A stretch of DNA of 64,000 nucleotides, from positions 1 to 64,000 of the forward strand of contig NZ_JAMHGA010000023.1 of NCBI RefSeq assembly GCF_023660105.1. The letters are read 5' to 3'. The DNA is from Desulfovibrio aminophilus (GTDB lineage: Bacteria > Desulfobacterota > Desulfovibrionia > Desulfovibrionales > Desulfovibrionaceae). Under the pieces are notes generated by a model that had not been told where the DNA came from, made no database searches, and worked only from the letters and a program-made list of their open reading frames with translations. Position 1 is the first letter of the stretch; each line of letters starts with the position of its first letter. Made by a program: the position numbers and the translations under genes. Positions 1,773-40,661 of the stretch are shown piece after piece.

Positions 1773-2624
1773 ATGGCACTGAAACTGGACATGCAGGGCA
1801 AGACCTACGGTCCCTTCGTGCGCAAGTACGACTTCAAGGACCTGATCCTCTTCGCCCTCGGCTGCGGCGCGGGCCGCGACGGCCGCACGGACCTGCAGTA
1901 CGTGTACGAGAAGGACCTGAAGATCCTGCCCCTGTTCGCGGCCATGCCCATCGTGGACAGCGAGGTCACCAAGACCATCGACTACGGCTTCAACTGGGGC
2001 GGCTCCCTGCACTGGGGCTTCGACCTCCAGTTCCACCAGCCCCTGACCAAGCTCTCCGGCACCCTGAGCACCCAGGTGCTCCTCAAGGGCCTGTACGACC
2101 GGGGCGAGGGCCGGGGACTGCTGGCCCAGCACATCGGCGACACCTACGACGAGACCGGAACCAAGCTCTTCACCAACGAGAGCTGGGACATCGCCCTCTA
2201 CGACGGCGGATTCGGCGGACCCAAGCCGCCCAAGGACGTCGTGGAGATGCCCGACCGCGCGCCGGACTTCGAGGTCAGCGAGCCCATCGACCAGAACCGC
2301 GCGCTCATCTACCGCCTGTCCGGCGACTACCACCCGCAGCACATCGACTGGGAGTACGCCCAGAAGTACGGCCACCCCAAGCCGAACCTGCACGCCGTGA
2401 GCACGGCCGGAACCGCCTGCCGCCACATCATCCAGACCATCATCCCCGGGGAGCCCGGACGGCTGACCCGCTTCAAGACCCGCATCACCAAGCCGCTGTA
2501 CCCCGGCGTGACCATCAAGACCCAGATCTGGAAGTGGGACGACCACTCGGTCCACTTCCGCGTCGTCGACGCCGACAACGCGGACATGATCTACCTCAAC
2601 TACGCCCTGGCGGAGTGGAAATAG
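1773..2624 (+). CDS. MaoC-type (R)-specific enoyl-CoA hydratase
   Basis: 283 residues, the size of a double hot-dog hydratase 2. The hydratase-2 signature is present as [13 protein letters not shown] (residues 180-192), with the expected catalytic D185 and H190. It would add water to a trans-2-enoyl-CoA, or run in reverse, using a product of the upstream ligase. A GGAG box sits 8 bases before the ATG, and the gene follows the ligase by about 100 bases in the same direction. No acyl-CoA dehydrogenase, 3-hydroxyacyl-CoA dehydrogenase or thiolase is visible in the window, so the rest of the pathway must be elsewhere or upstream of the visible edge. Confidence 0.85.
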
Positions 2625-2635
2625 CAGCCCCTCCC

Positions 2636-2671
2636 GGGCCGCCGTTCCCCTCCGCCGGGGGACGGCGGCCC
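2636..2671 (+). other. Long hairpin between the hydratase gene and fixA
   Basis: A 10-bp GC stem (2636-2645 with 2662-2671) continues through a T-G wobble into CCCC/GGGG around a six-base loop. There is no T run after it, so it looks like an mRNA stability or processing element inside the operon rather than a terminator. Confidence 0.5.
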
Positions 2672-2734
2672 CCTCCCCCGCGCGCGGGCCGGAACAGGGA
2701 CGGACAACATTCACCGGAATCAGGAAGGTATCGC

Positions 2735-3508
2735 ATGAACATCATCGTCGGTTGCAAACTCGTTCCCGAGGAGCAGGACATCGCCGTCCTCGGGGACGGC
2801 TCGCTGGACACGGGCAAGGCCGCCCCGAAGATCAGCCCGTTCGACCTCAACGCCGTCCAGGCCGCGATGGACATCAAGGCCCAGGTGGGCGAGGCCCGCG
2901 TCACCGCCCTGAGCGTCGGCGGCAAGGAATTGGAGAATTCCAAGGCCCGCAAGGACATCCTCTCCCGGGGACCGGACGAGCTGGCCGTGGTCATGGACGA
3001 ATCCCTGGCCGGGGCCCTGCCGGACCGCACCGCCGAGGTGCTGGCCGCCGCGGCCCGCAAGCTCGGCTTCGACCTCATCCTCTGCGGCGACGGCTCCGGC
3101 GACCTCTACGCCCAGCAGGTGGGCGTGCGCCTGGGGGCCCTGCTCGGCGCGGCCACCCTGAGCGGGGTGAGCCGCATCGTGAGCGTCGCCGACGGCAAGC
3201 TGACCGTGGAGCGCACCCTGGAAAACGAGGTGGAGGTGCTGGAAGCGCCCCTGCCCGCGGTCCTCTCCGTGTCCGCCGACATCAACGTCCCGGCCATTCC
3301 GGGCATGAAGGCCATCCTCGGCGCGGCCAAGAAGCCCGTGAACGCCCTGGGCCTTTCGGACATCGGCTGCGCCCCCGCGCCCGCGCTGGTGGAGCTCGTC
3401 GAGGTCAAGGCGCCCAAGCAGAAAGAGCGCAAGCGGATCATCATCGAGGGCGACGGCGAGGACAAGATCGCCGAACTCGTGGCCCAGCTGCGCAAAATCA
3501 TCCACTGA
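2735..3508 (+). CDS. fixA: Electron transfer flavoprotein beta subunit, FixA
   Basis: 257-residue ETF beta subunit starting [16 protein letters not shown], with the usual ETF-beta nucleotide-binding core and C-terminal arm. Pairs with the adjacent FixB (12 bases downstream). In the FixABCX family the AB dimer binds FAD and takes electrons from NADH, passing them to FixC and FixX in flavin-based bifurcation. The start at 2735 was chosen because it follows an AGGAAGG box (2722-2728) and begins at the family N-terminus; longer upstream starts fall into unrelated sequence. Separation of fixAB from fixCX by other genes is unusual. Confidence 0.93.
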
Positions 3509-35757: not shown

Positions 35758-35786
35758 TTGACAACGGCGGGAATCGCCCTTAGTGT
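35758..35786 (+). promoter_or_regulatory. Sigma-70 promoter of the riboswitch operon
   Basis: A perfect TTGACA (35758-35763), a 17-base spacer and TAGTGT (35781-35786). The predicted start near 35793 is just before the P1 stem of the riboswitch, which supports both calls. Confidence 0.7.
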
Positions 35787-35796
35787 CGATTCCGTC

Positions 35797-35893
35797 GAAG
35801 GGGAGTAGCTCTTTCGGGCAAGGTCAACAATACTGGCGCCGCCCATCGGCGCTTGGCCTTGCCGTCGGTTCCCGACCGATGAGCCAGACCTTC
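35797..35893 (+). ncRNA. yybP-ykoY manganese riboswitch
   Basis: The conserved L1 segment GGGGAGTAGC (35800-35809) follows the P1 5' strand GAAGG (35797-35801); the L3-side segment GTCAACAATACTGG (35823-35836) and the distal GATGAGCCAGACCTTC (35878-35893), whose CCTTC closes P1, are present. This pattern is that of the yybP-ykoY class, which senses Mn2+ and typically precedes metal-export genes, including terC/alx. A TerC-family gene is indeed in the operon. Confidence 0.85.
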
Positions 35894-35908
35894 CGCGTGA
35901 GAAATCAT

Positions 35909-35955
35909 GCTGGAGGTCTTTTTTTTCGGAACCTCCAGCCAACCCGACCTGGAGG
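35909..35955 (+). promoter_or_regulatory. Riboswitch expression platform with anti-SD/anti-anti-SD
   Basis: CTGGAGG occurs at 35910-35916 and again at 35949-35955, where it is the ribosome binding site; the complement CCTCCAG lies between (35932-35938). The middle strand can pair either with the first copy (9-bp stem 35909-35917/35931-35939, SD free) or with the SD itself (translation off). The T run sits in the loop, not after the stem, so transcription termination is unlikely. Confidence 0.65.
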
Positions 35956-35960
35956 CTTCC

Positions 35961-36971
35961 ATGCTCGACCACACGACCACCCCCGTTCCCACCGCCCGCG
36001 CGCCGCGCGGCAGGGCCATGCTCTTCGCGCGCCGCGCCTTCGCCGCGCTGCTGGCCGCGGCCGTGCTCCTGGCGTCCTTCGACCTCGCCGAGGCCAAGCG
36101 TCTCGGCGGCGGCCGCTCCTTCGGCGGCGGCGGCTCGTACTCCAAGCCCTACAACAAACCCACGCCCCCGCCGGACCGGGCGGGCGCGCCCACCCGGCAG
36201 CAGGACAACGCGGGCCAGAACCAGCAGGCCGCGCCGGGCCAGCAGGCCGGAAAGACCGGCGGCGGCCTGTCCCGCTTCGGCGGCATCGGCGGCATGGTCG
36301 GCGGCCTGCTCATGGGCGGCCTGATCGGCTCGCTCCTGTTCGGCGGCGGCTTCGGCGGCGGTTTCGGCCTTCTGGAAATGCTCCTGGTGGGCGTGGGCAT
36401 CTTCATGCTCATGAAGTTCTTCCGCTCGCGCCGCGCGGCCCGGGAACAGGCCGCGCCCATGGGCGGGGAGCGCTTCGCCTACGCCTCGGGCCCGGCCGCC
36501 GGCCACGACGTCCGCGACAACGCCGACGGCTGGGGCTCGCTGCGCTCGGGCCCGTCCGGCCAGGGCGCGGGCGTCCCCACCGGCCCGGTCATGCCCGAGG
36601 GCGTGGACGAGGCCGAGTTCATCGCCGGGGCCAAGGCCCTGTTCGCCCGCCTGCAGGCCTCCTGGGACCGCCGCGACCTGGAGGACATCCGCGCCTTCAC
36701 CACCTCCGGGGTCTTCGAGGAGATCGCCCGCCAGGCCCAGGAAGACCCGAACCCCGGCACGACCGACGTGCTCATGGTCGAGGCCCGGGTGGTCGAGGTG
36801 GAACGCGAGGGAAGCCACACGGTGATGACCGTGCTCTTCGACGCCCTGCTGCGCGAGGACCAGGCCGCCGCCATGCCCGGACAGACCCGCGAGGTCTGGC
36901 GCATCCGCCGCGACGAGTCCTCGGCCAGGCCCGAGTGGCTCCTGGACGGCATCCAGCAACTGGCGAACTGA
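35961..36971 (+). CDS. Exported Tim44-like domain protein
   Basis: 336 residues. Signal peptide (about 18-43, FARRAFAALLAAAVLLASFDLAEA), a Gly-rich stretch (KRLGGGRSFGGGGS), a Pro/Gln-rich linker, a Gly-rich hydrophobic segment (about 105-145, ending LLEMLLVGVGIFMLMKFF) and a C-terminal Tim44-like fold (about 210-335; EFIAGAKALFARLQASWDRRDLEDIRAFTTSGVF). Proteins of this layout are found widely in proteobacteria without known function. The ATG at 35961 is set by GGAGG at 35951-35955; an ATG at 35907 would start inside the regulatory hairpin. Regulated by the Mn riboswitch, with terC 75 bases downstream. Confidence 0.82.
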   Translation: MLDHTTTPVPTARAPRGRAMLFARRAFAALLAAAVLLASFDLAEAKRLGGGRSFGGGGSYSKPYNKPTPPPDRAGAPTRQQDNAGQNQQAAPGQQAGKTGGGLSRFGGIGGMVGGLLMGGLIGSLLFGGGFGGGFGLLEMLLVGVGIFMLMKFFRSRRAAREQAAPMGGERFAYASGPAAGHDVRDNADGWGSLRSGPSGQGAGVPTGPVMPEGVDEAEFIAGAKALFARLQASWDRRDLEDIRAFTTSGVFEEIARQAQEDPNPGTTDVLMVEARVVEVEREGSHTVMTVLFDALLREDQAAAMPGQTREVWRIRRDESSARPEWLLDGIQQLAN

Positions 36972-36985
36972 CCGAACGTCCGCGT

Positions 36986-37010
36986 CCGGGCCGGGGAAAA
37001 CCCGGCCCGG
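36986..37010 (+). other. Hairpin between the Tim44-like gene and terC
   Basis: A 10-bp GC stem (36986-36995 with 37001-37010) with a GAAAA loop and no T run. More likely an mRNA stability element than a terminator. Confidence 0.5.
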
Positions 37011-37046
37011 ATTCCGGCGGACGGACACCCGTGATATGATGGAGCG

Positions 37047-38066
37047 ATGATGGGCACCCTCTGGATGTGGATCGGCTTCAACCTGCTCGTCCTGGGCCTG
37101 CTGGCCCTGGACCTCGGCGTCCTGCACCGGGGCGGCCGGGAGATCGGGGTGCGCGAGTCCCTGCTGCTCAGCCTGGGCTACGTGGTCCTGGCCCTGGCCT
37201 TCGGCGCGGGCCTCCATCACTTCCTCGGGCCCCAGGCCGCCGCCGAGTATCTCACGGGCTATCTCATCGAGAAGAGCCTGAGCGTCGACAACATCTTCGT
37301 CTTCGTTCTCGTCTTCACGCACTTCGCCGTGCCCAAGCACTGCCGCCACCGGGTCCTGTTCTGGGGCATCCTGGGGGCCCTGATCATGCGCGCCGCGCTC
37401 ATCGTGGCCGGGGCCGCGGTCATCACGGCCTTCCACTGGCTCATCTACGTCTTCGGGGCCTTCCTCGTGTTCACCGGGGTGAAGATGCTCGTCACCGTGG
37501 GCAAGGAGCCGGACCTGGCGCGCAACCCCGTGAACCGCTTCATGCGTCGCCTCTTCCGCGTGACCGAGGGCTACGAGGACGGCAGATTCTTCGTCCGGCG
37601 GGACGGCGCGCTGCACATCACGCCCCTGCTCATCGTCCTGGCGCTCATCGAGTTCACGGACGTGGTCTTCGCCCTGGACTCCATCCCGGCCATCTTCGCC
37701 ATCACCACGGACCCGTTCCTGGTCTACACCTCCAACGTCTTCGCCATCCTCGGCCTGCGGGCGCTCTACTTCGCCCTGGAGGGCGTCATCCACCGCTTCC
37801 ACTACCTCAAGTACGGGCTCTCCCTGGTGCTCGTGCTCGTGGGCGCGAAGATGCTCCTGAACGCCTGGTTCGAGGCCAAGGTCATCCCCACGGAATGGGC
37901 CCTGGGGGCCACGGCCGCGATCATCGCCGGGTCCATGCTCGTCTCGCTGCTCAAGACCCGCGCCGGGGCGGACGCCGAGGGCCGCGCCCGGGCCGCGCAC
38001 TGGTGGGTGCCGGGAAGCCCGGCCAAGGAGAAGGAAAAACAGGGAACAAAAGGGGACCGCGTCTGA
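37047..38066 (+). CDS. TerC/Alx-family metal-export membrane protein
   Basis: 339 residues with about nine helices. Family signatures: SLSVDNIFVFVLVFTHF (near residue 76), and EFTDVVFALDSIPAIFAITTDPFLVYTSN (about 204-232), which contain the acidic residues thought to bind the metal. TerC/Alx members export Mn2+. Two ATGs (37047, 37050) follow GGAG at 37041-37044; the second is better spaced. The upstream Mn riboswitch supports manganese as the substrate. Confidence 0.92.
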   Translation: MMGTLWMWIGFNLLVLGLLALDLGVLHRGGREIGVRESLLLSLGYVVLALAFGAGLHHFLGPQAAAEYLTGYLIEKSLSVDNIFVFVLVFTHFAVPKHCRHRVLFWGILGALIMRAALIVAGAAVITAFHWLIYVFGAFLVFTGVKMLVTVGKEPDLARNPVNRFMRRLFRVTEGYEDGRFFVRRDGALHITPLLIVLALIEFTDVVFALDSIPAIFAITTDPFLVYTSNVFAILGLRALYFALEGVIHRFHYLKYGLSLVLVLVGAKMLLNAWFEAKVIPTEWALGATAAIIAGSMLVSLLKTRAGADAEGRARAAHWWVPGSPAKEKEKQGTKGDRV

Positions 38067-38072
38067 CGGGGC

Positions 38073-40661
38073 TCAGCCGGACAGCCCGGCGATGTCCTTC
38101 TCCATCTTCTCGCGCAGCGGGCCGATGACCGCCTCGTTGCCCATGGCCATGTCCAGCTGGCGGGTGTGGATGACCACGTAGCCGAGCACGGCCACGCGAT
38201 CCAGGGTGGCGGCTTGGTCCAGGCCCTCCAGGCGGGCGAAGAGCGCGTCCTCCCGCACCTCCACCCGGAAGTCCCGCTCCTCCAGGAGCCCGGCCACGAG
38301 CAGGGCCCGGCTCCGGCGGCGCGGCAGGTCGGCGGCTCCGCCCTTGAACTGGAAGCTGACGTAGTTCTCCTGGGGGTCGTCCCCGGCCTGGGCCTCCACG
38401 GTGCAGAAGTGGAATCCGAAGCGGGACTGGAGGTTGCAGAACTCCTTGGAGATCATGAAGTAGTTCTTGACCGTGAAGGCGCTGGCCACGGTCGGCTCCA
38501 GCTCCGGGTTGCTGGCCGCGCCCGCCACCACGGCGAGGAAGCCCCGGGCGTCGGCCGCCGGTGGCCCGGCCCAGGGCACGGCGGTCATGCCCCGCCAGAG
38601 CGCGCGCATGGGCCCGGAGGCGATGCGCGCGATGTCCACGAAGCGGCCTTCCACCGGACCGTCGAAGCCGTCCTCCAGGTCGATGACCCAATACTTGAGC
38701 TTGCTCTTGCCGCAGGTGAGCTGCTTGCTGAAGCCCTCCAGGCCCGCCTGCTCGCCCTCCAGGAACATCTCGCGCACGCTCTTCTCGTGGCAGAAGCGGG
38801 TGACGTCGTGCAGGGTCCGGCAATGCTCCGGCGTGAAATCGGGCGCGTCGGGGTCGATGAGGTTCAGGGGCACGATGTGGGCGCAGGCCCCGGCCAGGGC
38901 GGCGTGCACCGGGCTGCCCTCCATGAGGTTGCGCGGGGCCGGGCGCAGGGCCAGCAACTCCTCGGCCCGGCCCGGATGCACGCGGCGGTTGTCCGCGTCC
39001 ACCGTGACCTCGCCCGCGCCGTCCAGGGCCTCCAGCGCGCCCGCCACGCCGAGCAGGGCCGGGACGCCGTATTCGCGGGCCACGTTGGCCAGGTGCCCGG
39101 CCGCGCTGCCCGCCTCGCAGACCACGGCCGCCGCCCGCGAGAGCAGCGGGGCCCAGCGCGGGTGGGCCTGGGCCGCCACAAGCACCGCGCCGTCCGGGAA
39201 GCGCAGGGCGTCGGCGTCCTTGCGCACCGCGAAGGCCGGGCCGCAGCCCACGCCCGGGGCCGCCGTGGTCCCGCCGGAGAGGAGCACGGGCAGGCGCGTG
39301 TCCGGCGGCGCGGCCTCTTCCCGCCGCCCGCTCTCGTGCAGGGGGCGGCTCTGCAGCAACACGATCCCGCCGTCCGGGGCCAGGGCGAACTCGATGTCCT
39401 GGGGCAGGCCGTAGAATTCCTCCATGTCCGCGGCCAGGGCCGCCACCTCCAGGACCTGGGCCTCGCTGAGCGAGGGGGCCCCGGCCTCTCCGGGCGGCAC
39501 GTCCACCAGGGCGATGCCCTGGGCCGGGTCGCAGACGTACTTGGTGGGCTTGTCGGCCACCTCTGCGCGCGCCAGGCGCATGGGCTCGCCGCGCTCGACC
39601 AGGAACACGTCCGGGTCGAAGCTGCCGTCCACCACGGCCTTGGGCAGGCCGTGCACGGCGTTGACCACCACGGCCCCGCCCCGGATGTCCAGGGGATCGC
39701 GGCTGTAGGCCACGCCCCCGGCCTCGGCCCCGACCATGGCCATGCAGCCCACGCACATGGCCACGTCCTCGTCCGGGATGCCGCGCGTGAGCCGGTAGGT
39801 CATGGCCGTGAGGCCGTACTTGCTGGCCACGATCTCCTTGTAGGTCTCCAGGATTTCGTCGGCGGGCACGTTCAGCTCGGACTGGTACTGCCCGGCGAAG
39901 GAGGCCCCCAGGGCGTCCTCGCCCACGGCGCTGCTGCGCAGGGCCACCCGCACGCCCTCCCCGGCCTGGGTCTCCAGGTTCCGGTAGGCCTCCAGGATGG
40001 CCCGCTCCAGGTCCCCGGGCAGGGGCGCGGCCAGGATGAGCTTCTGGAGCGCGGAGGACAGGGCGAACAACTCGTCCAGGCGGGAGGCGTCGGCGGTCTG
40101 GATGCGGCGGTCGATCTCGGCCTGGAGGTCGGAGGCCTCCATGAAGCGGCGGTAGCCCGAGGCCGTGACCGCGAAGCCCGGGGGGATGCGGCGGCCCAGG
40201 CGGCGGACGATCTCGCCCAGGCTGGACATCTTGCCGCCCACCTCGTCGGCCAGGTGCACCCCGGTCTCGGCCAGGGGCAGGACCAGGGGCCCGCCGGAGC
40301 CGCCGGAGCGGGATTCCAGGTGCGGGGCCACGGCGGCCTGGATGGCCTTCAGGCGCTCGAACAGGGCGTCGTAGCGCCCATCGGCGAGGATCGAGAGCTG
40401 GCGGACGATCTGGAAGACGTTGGCGGCCACGCGGGCGCACTGGCCGCGCACGAAGGTCATGCCGAACGGCTTCTGGCCGCGCAGGGCCTCCTCCATGGAG
40501 GCCATGATGTCCAGGGCGGCGTTGTTGGCGGCCAGGAGGCGGCGGAAGCTCTCGCAGCGGGCGCGGTACCCGGCGCGCAGGGCCTCCAGGCGGGCGGGGG
40601 ACGGCGGTTCGGGCCGCGAGCCGCGCAGAAGGTCGCCCAATGCCCGGAAAATGCCCGCCAT
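38073..40661 (-). CDS. PEP-synthase-like phosphohistidine enzyme with unknown C-terminal domain (paralog 1)
   Basis: 862 residues. Order: a helical N-terminal domain (about 20-115), an ATP-grasp domain of PPDK/PEP-synthase type (about 135-440; VGGKMSSLGEI, RSSAVGEDALGASFAGQYQ, QDIEFAL, LLQSRP), a swivelling phosphohistidine domain (about 455-560) with catalytic H523 in GSAAGHLANVARE, then 300 residues (570-862) that are not the PEP/pyruvate TIM barrel of true PEP synthase. It should take phosphate from ATP to H523 and pass it to an unknown acceptor. A second copy lies at 46852-49449. It ends the sigma-54 operon, 16 bases after the receiver gene. Confidence 0.82.
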   Translation of the reverse strand: MAGIFRALGDLLRGSRPEPPSPARLEALRAGYRARCESFRRLLAANNAALDIMASMEEALRGQKPFGMTFVRGQCARVAANVFQIVRQLSILADGRYDALFERLKAIQAAVAPHLESRSGGSGGPLVLPLAETGVHLADEVGGKMSSLGEIVRRLGRRIPPGFAVTASGYRRFMEASDLQAEIDRRIQTADASRLDELFALSSALQKLILAAPLPGDLERAILEAYRNLETQAGEGVRVALRSSAVGEDALGASFAGQYQSELNVPADEILETYKEIVASKYGLTAMTYRLTRGIPDEDVAMCVGCMAMVGAEAGGVAYSRDPLDIRGGAVVVNAVHGLPKAVVDGSFDPDVFLVERGEPMRLARAEVADKPTKYVCDPAQGIALVDVPPGEAGAPSLSEAQVLEVAALAADMEEFYGLPQDIEFALAPDGGIVLLQSRPLHESGRREEAAPPDTRLPVLLSGGTTAAPGVGCGPAFAVRKDADALRFPDGAVLVAAQAHPRWAPLLSRAAAVVCEAGSAAGHLANVAREYGVPALLGVAGALEALDGAGEVTVDADNRRVHPGRAEELLALRPAPRNLMEGSPVHAALAGACAHIVPLNLIDPDAPDFTPEHCRTLHDVTRFCHEKSVREMFLEGEQAGLEGFSKQLTCGKSKLKYWVIDLEDGFDGPVEGRFVDIARIASGPMRALWRGMTAVPWAGPPAADARGFLAVVAGAASNPELEPTVASAFTVKNYFMISKEFCNLQSRFGFHFCTVEAQAGDDPQENYVSFQFKGGAADLPRRRSRALLVAGLLEERDFRVEVREDALFARLEGLDQAATLDRVAVLGYVVIHTRQLDMAMGNEAVIGPLREKMEKDIAGLSG

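Follow-up and report, generated by a model that had tools for sequence, protein, structure and literature searches.

Why does a gene for a Tim44-like protein stand between a manganese riboswitch and a manganese exporter gene, and is it controlled together with that exporter? The question is raised by a locus of the sulfate-reducing bacterium Desulfovibrio aminophilus (Desulfovibrionaceae), lying in a stretch of 64,000 nucleotides that was analysed as a whole and is called here the window. A sequence-only reading of this DNA had proposed a yybP-ykoY riboswitch ahead of a tim44-like gene and a terC gene. The riboswitch class, its ligand, its TerC/Alx target and both modes of control, transcriptional and translational, are already known; the link to Tim44, a P2-less subtype of the aptamer and a dual control platform look new. 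Our coverage of the literature was incomplete, and within it we found nothing that joins yybP-ykoY with Tim44 or a Tim44-like protein with manganese. A regulon survey of 2013 covered Desulfovibrionales and the yybP-ykoY family; its main text makes no mention of TerC, and an earlier listing of the operon in its supplements is possible (PMC3766115). The features of the locus are collected in Table 1.

Table 1. Features of the tim44-like/terC locus, in positions of the window
Feature	Position	Strand	Description or basis
Promoter	35758..35786	+	-35 TTGACA 35758-35763, 17-nt spacer, -10 TAGTGT 35781-35786; sequence
Mn2+ (yybP-ykoY) aptamer, predicted	35797..35893	+	comparative fold, covariance models
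P1	35797-35801/35889-35893	+	aptamer helix
P1.2	35808-35811/35881-35884	+	aptamer helix
P3.1	35817-35825/35855-35863	+	aptamer helix
P3.2	35835-35841/35847-35853	+	aptamer helix
P4	35864-35869/35875-35880	+	aptamer helix
L1 signature GGGGAGUAGC	35800..35809	+	little or no variation among 15 relatives
L3 signature GUCAACA	35823-35829	+	aptamer loop L3
Intrinsic terminator	35886..35926	+	stem 35886-35900/35905-35919 (14/15 pairs), U-tract 35919-35926
Antiterminator / anti-anti-SD helix	35909-35917/35931-35939	+	excludes terminator and SD helix
SD-sequestering helix	35932..35955	+	anti-SD CCUCCAG 35932-35938 with SD CUGGAGG 35949-35955
tim44-like gene	35961..36971	+	336 aa; Pfam, AlphaFold2
tim44-terC spacer	36972..37046	+	very stable GC hairpin 36976-37023, no U-tract, -46.3 kcal/mol
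terC, Alx type (R_switched_Alx)	37047..38066	+	339 aa; Pfam, NCBIfam

Promoter, aptamer and ligand

The leader (35758-35960) reads in order TTGACA, TAGTGT, about 10 bases, GAAGG-GGAGUAGC, the P3/L3 arm with GUCAACA, the P4 hairpin, GAGC and CAGACCUUC; a long hairpin then runs into eight U's, after which come ACCUCCAGC, CUGGAGG and the ATG at 35961. This ATG is the true start of tim44, since an upstream in-frame ATG at 35907 sits within the terminator and was discarded for that reason. The sigma-70 promoter had been called a good one, a word that its consensus does not bear out: the -35 hexamer is perfect, and the -10 hexamer is weak, with 3/6 matches, and absent from the promoter-scanner listing. 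TTGAC is nevertheless found just upstream of the aptamer in 39/39 related leaders examined, so that the promoter itself is well supported despite its weak -10.

All main conserved segments of the yybP-ykoY class had been claimed to occur in order, and we found them so (GGGGAGUAGC, GUCAACA of L3, UGGC and GAGC-AGACC), the comparative fold test being decisive. The L1 sequence and its 3' partner AGACC are both present, with P1 and P1.2, and UCAACA of L3, which carries the conserved discriminator A, is invariant in the 15 relatives. In an alignment of 15 aptamers, the window copy and 14 relatives, helices P1, P1.2, P3.1, P3.2 and P4 keep 95.6% of their pair cells, and 19/31 pairs show two-sided changes. 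None of 500 shuffles reached any of the five measures, and pairing falls to 22-44% when the partners are slid by 1-3 bases. A lineage covariance model built from this alignment gives the window copy, itself in the training set, 101.5 bits, the next best match in the rest of the 64-kb window reaching 9.7 bits. With this model the RNA is present in 101/288 genomes of the family, in 99/297 sampled from the order and in 39/395 sampled from the phylum, all taken as deposited and many of them MAGs.

The window aptamer departs from the Rfam consensus by one additional base in L3 and by its junction, in which P1.2 and P3.1 are linked by UUUCG only, in place of the P2 arm of a four-way junction. P2 is likewise absent from the tim44 and CaCA1 types, and one relative (L004) has an insertion able to form it; we consequently treat P2 as a variable element and speak of a P2-less subtype. 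Rfam release 15 gave no match in the leader at the gathering threshold. At an E-value threshold RF00080 was by far the best match, with 20.1 bits (E=0.0048) against a cut-off of 45 bits. A low covariance score had been named beforehand as a result that would speak against the riboswitch and, taken literally, it was obtained with RF00080; its cause lies in the Rfam model. The family was matched in five control genomes, above the cut-off in 2/5, and the cut-off was passed by 0/12 Desulfobacterota loci chosen for their switch and tested together, so that we treat the low score as a property of the model and not as a biological criterion. In the RF00080 alignment the P1 letters are left unpaired, and many model positions fall on P2 and on downstream regions that are short or absent here, which suggests where the score is lost. 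Weak Rfam matches in four relatives (L009-L012) look like chance hits within coding sequence; matches to PtaRNA1 and HTT-AS1 are also chance.

The conserved L1/L3 core and the genes controlled indicate that the RNA almost certainly senses manganese. The discriminator A corresponds to A48 in the numbering of the X. oryzae crystal structure (PMC6754395), and the spacing of C44/A46/A48 there fits C34/A36/A38 of the window aptamer, a mapping that we infer.

Downstream helices and the proposed switch

The leader had been described as a translational switch. The hairpin that sequesters the Shine-Dalgarno (SD) sequence is indeed present; it is preceded by an unreported intrinsic terminator, so that the switch would be transcriptional too. 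The terminator stem (-20.3 kcal/mol, computed) is followed by eight U's, and the 3' strand of P1, CCUUC 35889-35893, lies within its 5' strand; a strand common to the terminator and to the ligand-stabilised helix, together with a U-tract, is what defines a riboswitch with an intrinsic terminator. Across 24 leaders the terminator helix keeps 92.7% of its pair cells, the SD helix 93.3% and the antiterminator helix 96.8%, the last no better than shuffles. Covariation is scant in these helices because each strand serves two partners, and what supports the three predicted helices is conserved complementarity, not covariation. U-rich tails follow the terminator stem in most relatives; the U-tract is missing from L048 and L176, which keep the SD stage, and their switch would therefore be translational only.

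Because strands are shared, P1 should exclude the terminator, the terminator the antiterminator, and the antiterminator the sequestration of the SD. Computed energies, which leave aside tertiary and ligand contributions, are -82.9 kcal/mol for the OFF fold and -72.1 kcal/mol for the ON fold, as expected for a switch that needs Mn2+ to be ON. The stretch 3' of P1 folds with the antiterminator (-25.0 kcal/mol), and the stretch 3' of the terminator folds with the SD hairpin (-16.0 kcal/mol, both computed).

We put at about 85% the probability that a Mn2+-sensing yybP-ykoY riboswitch turns on the tim44-like/terC operon at high cytoplasmic Mn2+, and it probably works as a dual ON switch, at the levels of transcription and translation. 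Mn2+, with Mg2+, would dock L1 onto L3 and stabilise P1; P1 would then withhold CCUUC from the 5' strand of the terminator, and RNA polymerase would read through. The freed GCUGGAGGU strand would pair with ACCUCCAGC, a stretch that doubles as the anti-SD, and leave the tim44 SD exposed. Without Mn2+ the terminator would form, and any read-through transcript would retain a paired SD. The competition between P1 and the terminator is supported by the mechanism established for the L. lactis yybP-ykoY switch (yoaB), in which the P1.1 3' strand is common to an intrinsic terminator, has been shown to partition to it without Mn2+, and Mn2+ turns the gene on (PMC11087558). The window RNA differs in having no P2, and hence a three-way junction, in adding an SD-sequestering stage and in controlling tim44-terC. 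In E. coli, Alx belongs to the same TerC subfamily as the window gene and translational control has been described for the mntP switch (PMC11647493), whereas in the window leader the SD helix is preceded by a strong intrinsic terminator.

The conserved SD helix and the two leaders without a U-tract would also suit a purely translational switch, in which the terminator-like hairpin is a structural sink only. A 14/15-pair stem of such computed stability, running into eight U's and sharing the 3' strand of P1, argues against this, as do the U-rich tails of most relatives, and we consider it improbable. Smaller still is the chance that the RNA of this lineage is a yybP-ykoY relative which now binds another ligand or no longer acts as a sensor: the low Rfam score, the missing P2 and the extra L3 base might be read in that way, but the core letters of L1 and L3 are conserved in the relatives and the genes behind the RNA are still manganese exporters.

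Genes behind the switch

The gene following tim44 is terC, as had been claimed, with 180.8 bits for PF03741 (cut-off 27.8) and 406.1 bits for TIGR03718, the NCBIfam model R_switched_Alx (cut-off 246.4). The hairpin in the spacer between the two genes has no U's, so that terC may be uncoupled from tim44 and tuned separately; the same spacer holds different hairpins of similar stability in several relatives. A convergent gene on the minus strand (38073-40661) ends 6 bases from terC, and combines PEP-synthase ATP-binding and PEP-utiliser mobile domains with scores far below the PEP-synthase cut-offs.

In the relatives the same RNA precedes tim44-terC (L044, L046, L050, L175, L177, L180, L181/L129), tim44 followed by CaCA (L097, L105/L289), terC alone (L053, L178, L275, L277, L279, L282, L284) or another TerC type. 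The order tim44-htpX-terC occurs in L057, where a gene for an HtpX-type M48 protease (2479-3345) lies between the other two; L045 retains an htpX remnant, and in L094/L174 the contig ends after the htpX match. A weak aptamer (34.9 bits with the lineage model, 11.1 with Rfam) forms a switch-like leader directly ahead of htpX (M48) in L291 (297-1458), which belongs to another family of the phylum. Genes of the sodium/calcium-exchanger family also lie behind the RNA; one of them (PF01699) follows a second switch in the window's own genome (G000:C28:142926-143024; L062 4918-5017). Pfam confirms TerC, CaCA and M48 among the genes behind the RNA; UPF0016-like and P-type ATPase-like proteins behind it in the wider phylum were called by their letters. 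Nearly all genes behind this RNA other than tim44 are of manganese-exporter type, and a Mn2+-type switch ahead of Tim44-TerC, as first proposed from the sequence, is strongly supported by covariation, by a position conserved over many genomes and by these exporter genes. In L053, in which tim44 is missing, the leader SD and ATG open a short reading frame some 200 nt ahead of terC (2021-2290), possibly a tim44 remnant or a leader peptide.

The presence of terC behind the switch without tim44, in L053, L178, L275, L277 and others, could mean that the switch meaningfully controls terC only and that tim44 is an accidental passenger between the two. This we regard as unlikely, because in Desulfomicrobium-like genomes (L272/L274, L278, L280, L281, L283) tim44 has a switch of its own, distinct from the ones that precede CaCA and terC; in G331 and G347 each of the three genes has a separate switch. 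Furthermore, switch and tim44 are also joined in Desulfobacterales, on a second branch of the Tim44 tree, where no TerC match was found in the flank searched. In a tree of 114 Tim44-like proteins, 26 distinct switch-bearing proteins of Desulfovibrionales form one fully supported clade, four more (L122, L136, L141, L162) fall in a separate Desulfobacterales part, and the switch label requires 4 changes compared with 26.9 for shuffled labels. The switches of these four were called by motif and visible terminator; the lineage model gives 22.4 bits to L136 and 21.3 bits to L141, and did not find those of L122 and L162. In L122 (4732-9305) the switch is followed by tim44, a Bax1-I family gene, a CNNM/CBS protein and a ZIP-like transporter, which looks like a neighbourhood of metal and membrane-quality type. 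No switch was seen at the Tim44 families f54 and f76, which were also checked.

A Tim44-like protein probably under manganese control

The identity of the Tim44-like protein holds, with 56.1 bits for PF04280 (cut-off 29.6). Its layout is that of an N-terminal hydrophobic helix, a Gly-rich stretch, a membrane helix (137-163) and a C-terminal Tim44/NTF2-like domain, and the AlphaFold2 model has helices at 17-39 and 137-163 and a C-terminal domain at 213-336 with pLDDT mostly >90 and NTF2-like fold matches. Among PDB folds, the model best matches chain d of mammalian mitoribosome entries, one of them an OXA1L complex; these matches have E 2e-4 and modest TM-scores, since they leave most of the query without a counterpart. 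We take chain d to be mL45, a relative of Tim44 located at the exit site that faces the membrane. A PDB sequence search with the Tim44 alignment returned only a weak match of CHCHD10 to the low-complexity part, and the model of the Tim44/TimA adaptor (NF033779) gave 21.6 bits, below its cut-off of 80 bits. The protein had been described as exported, which is too strong: its two hydrophobic helices, the second followed by KFFRSRRAAR, indicate a protein that is probably anchored in the membrane, with the positive charges after the second helix suggesting that the Tim44 domain lies in the cytoplasm. It thus shares fold and PF04280 with the mitochondrial mL45/Tim44 family, and differs from it in being bacterial, in its Gly-rich, membrane-anchored N-terminus and in its Mn2+-type control.

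In B. subtilis a Mn riboswitch controls meeY, the TerC-family proteins MeeY and MeeF export Mn and metalate exoenzymes, and TerC proteins co-purify with SecDF, SecY, FtsH and HtpX; Tim44 is absent from the main text of that paper (PMC10550928). By contrast, in the loci studied here tim44, and sometimes htpX, shares a locus with terC, and with the B. subtilis co-purification in mind the order tim44-htpX-terC hints, tentatively, at a shared translocon process. TerC would export Mn2+, load it onto exported enzymes, or both. The least certain step of our explanation is the part played by the membrane-anchored Tim44-like protein, which might, as a speculative proposal, act at the inner membrane with the Sec and quality-control machinery under Mn2+ overload. 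With the same reserve, Tim44-like, HtpX and TerC could be conceived as a single module of the inner membrane, induced by Mn2+, in which the Tim44-like protein would be a membrane-tethered partner of the Sec translocon or insertase and would work with TerC in Mn2+ export, or in metalation or insertion of exported proteins, and HtpX would clear failed proteins.

The current Rfam cut-off hides these Mn2+ switches of Desulfobacterota, and riboswitch regulons assign function. Here a Mn2+ sensor of a well-understood class repeatedly marks a Tim44-like protein, in two orders and with switch copies of its own, so that this protein should matter under manganese overload; it appears to be tied to manganese stress for the first time. 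The HtpX neighbours agree with the independent co-purification of B. subtilis TerC with Sec components, FtsH and HtpX. If true, the proposed module would give a first role to a widespread family of unknown function.
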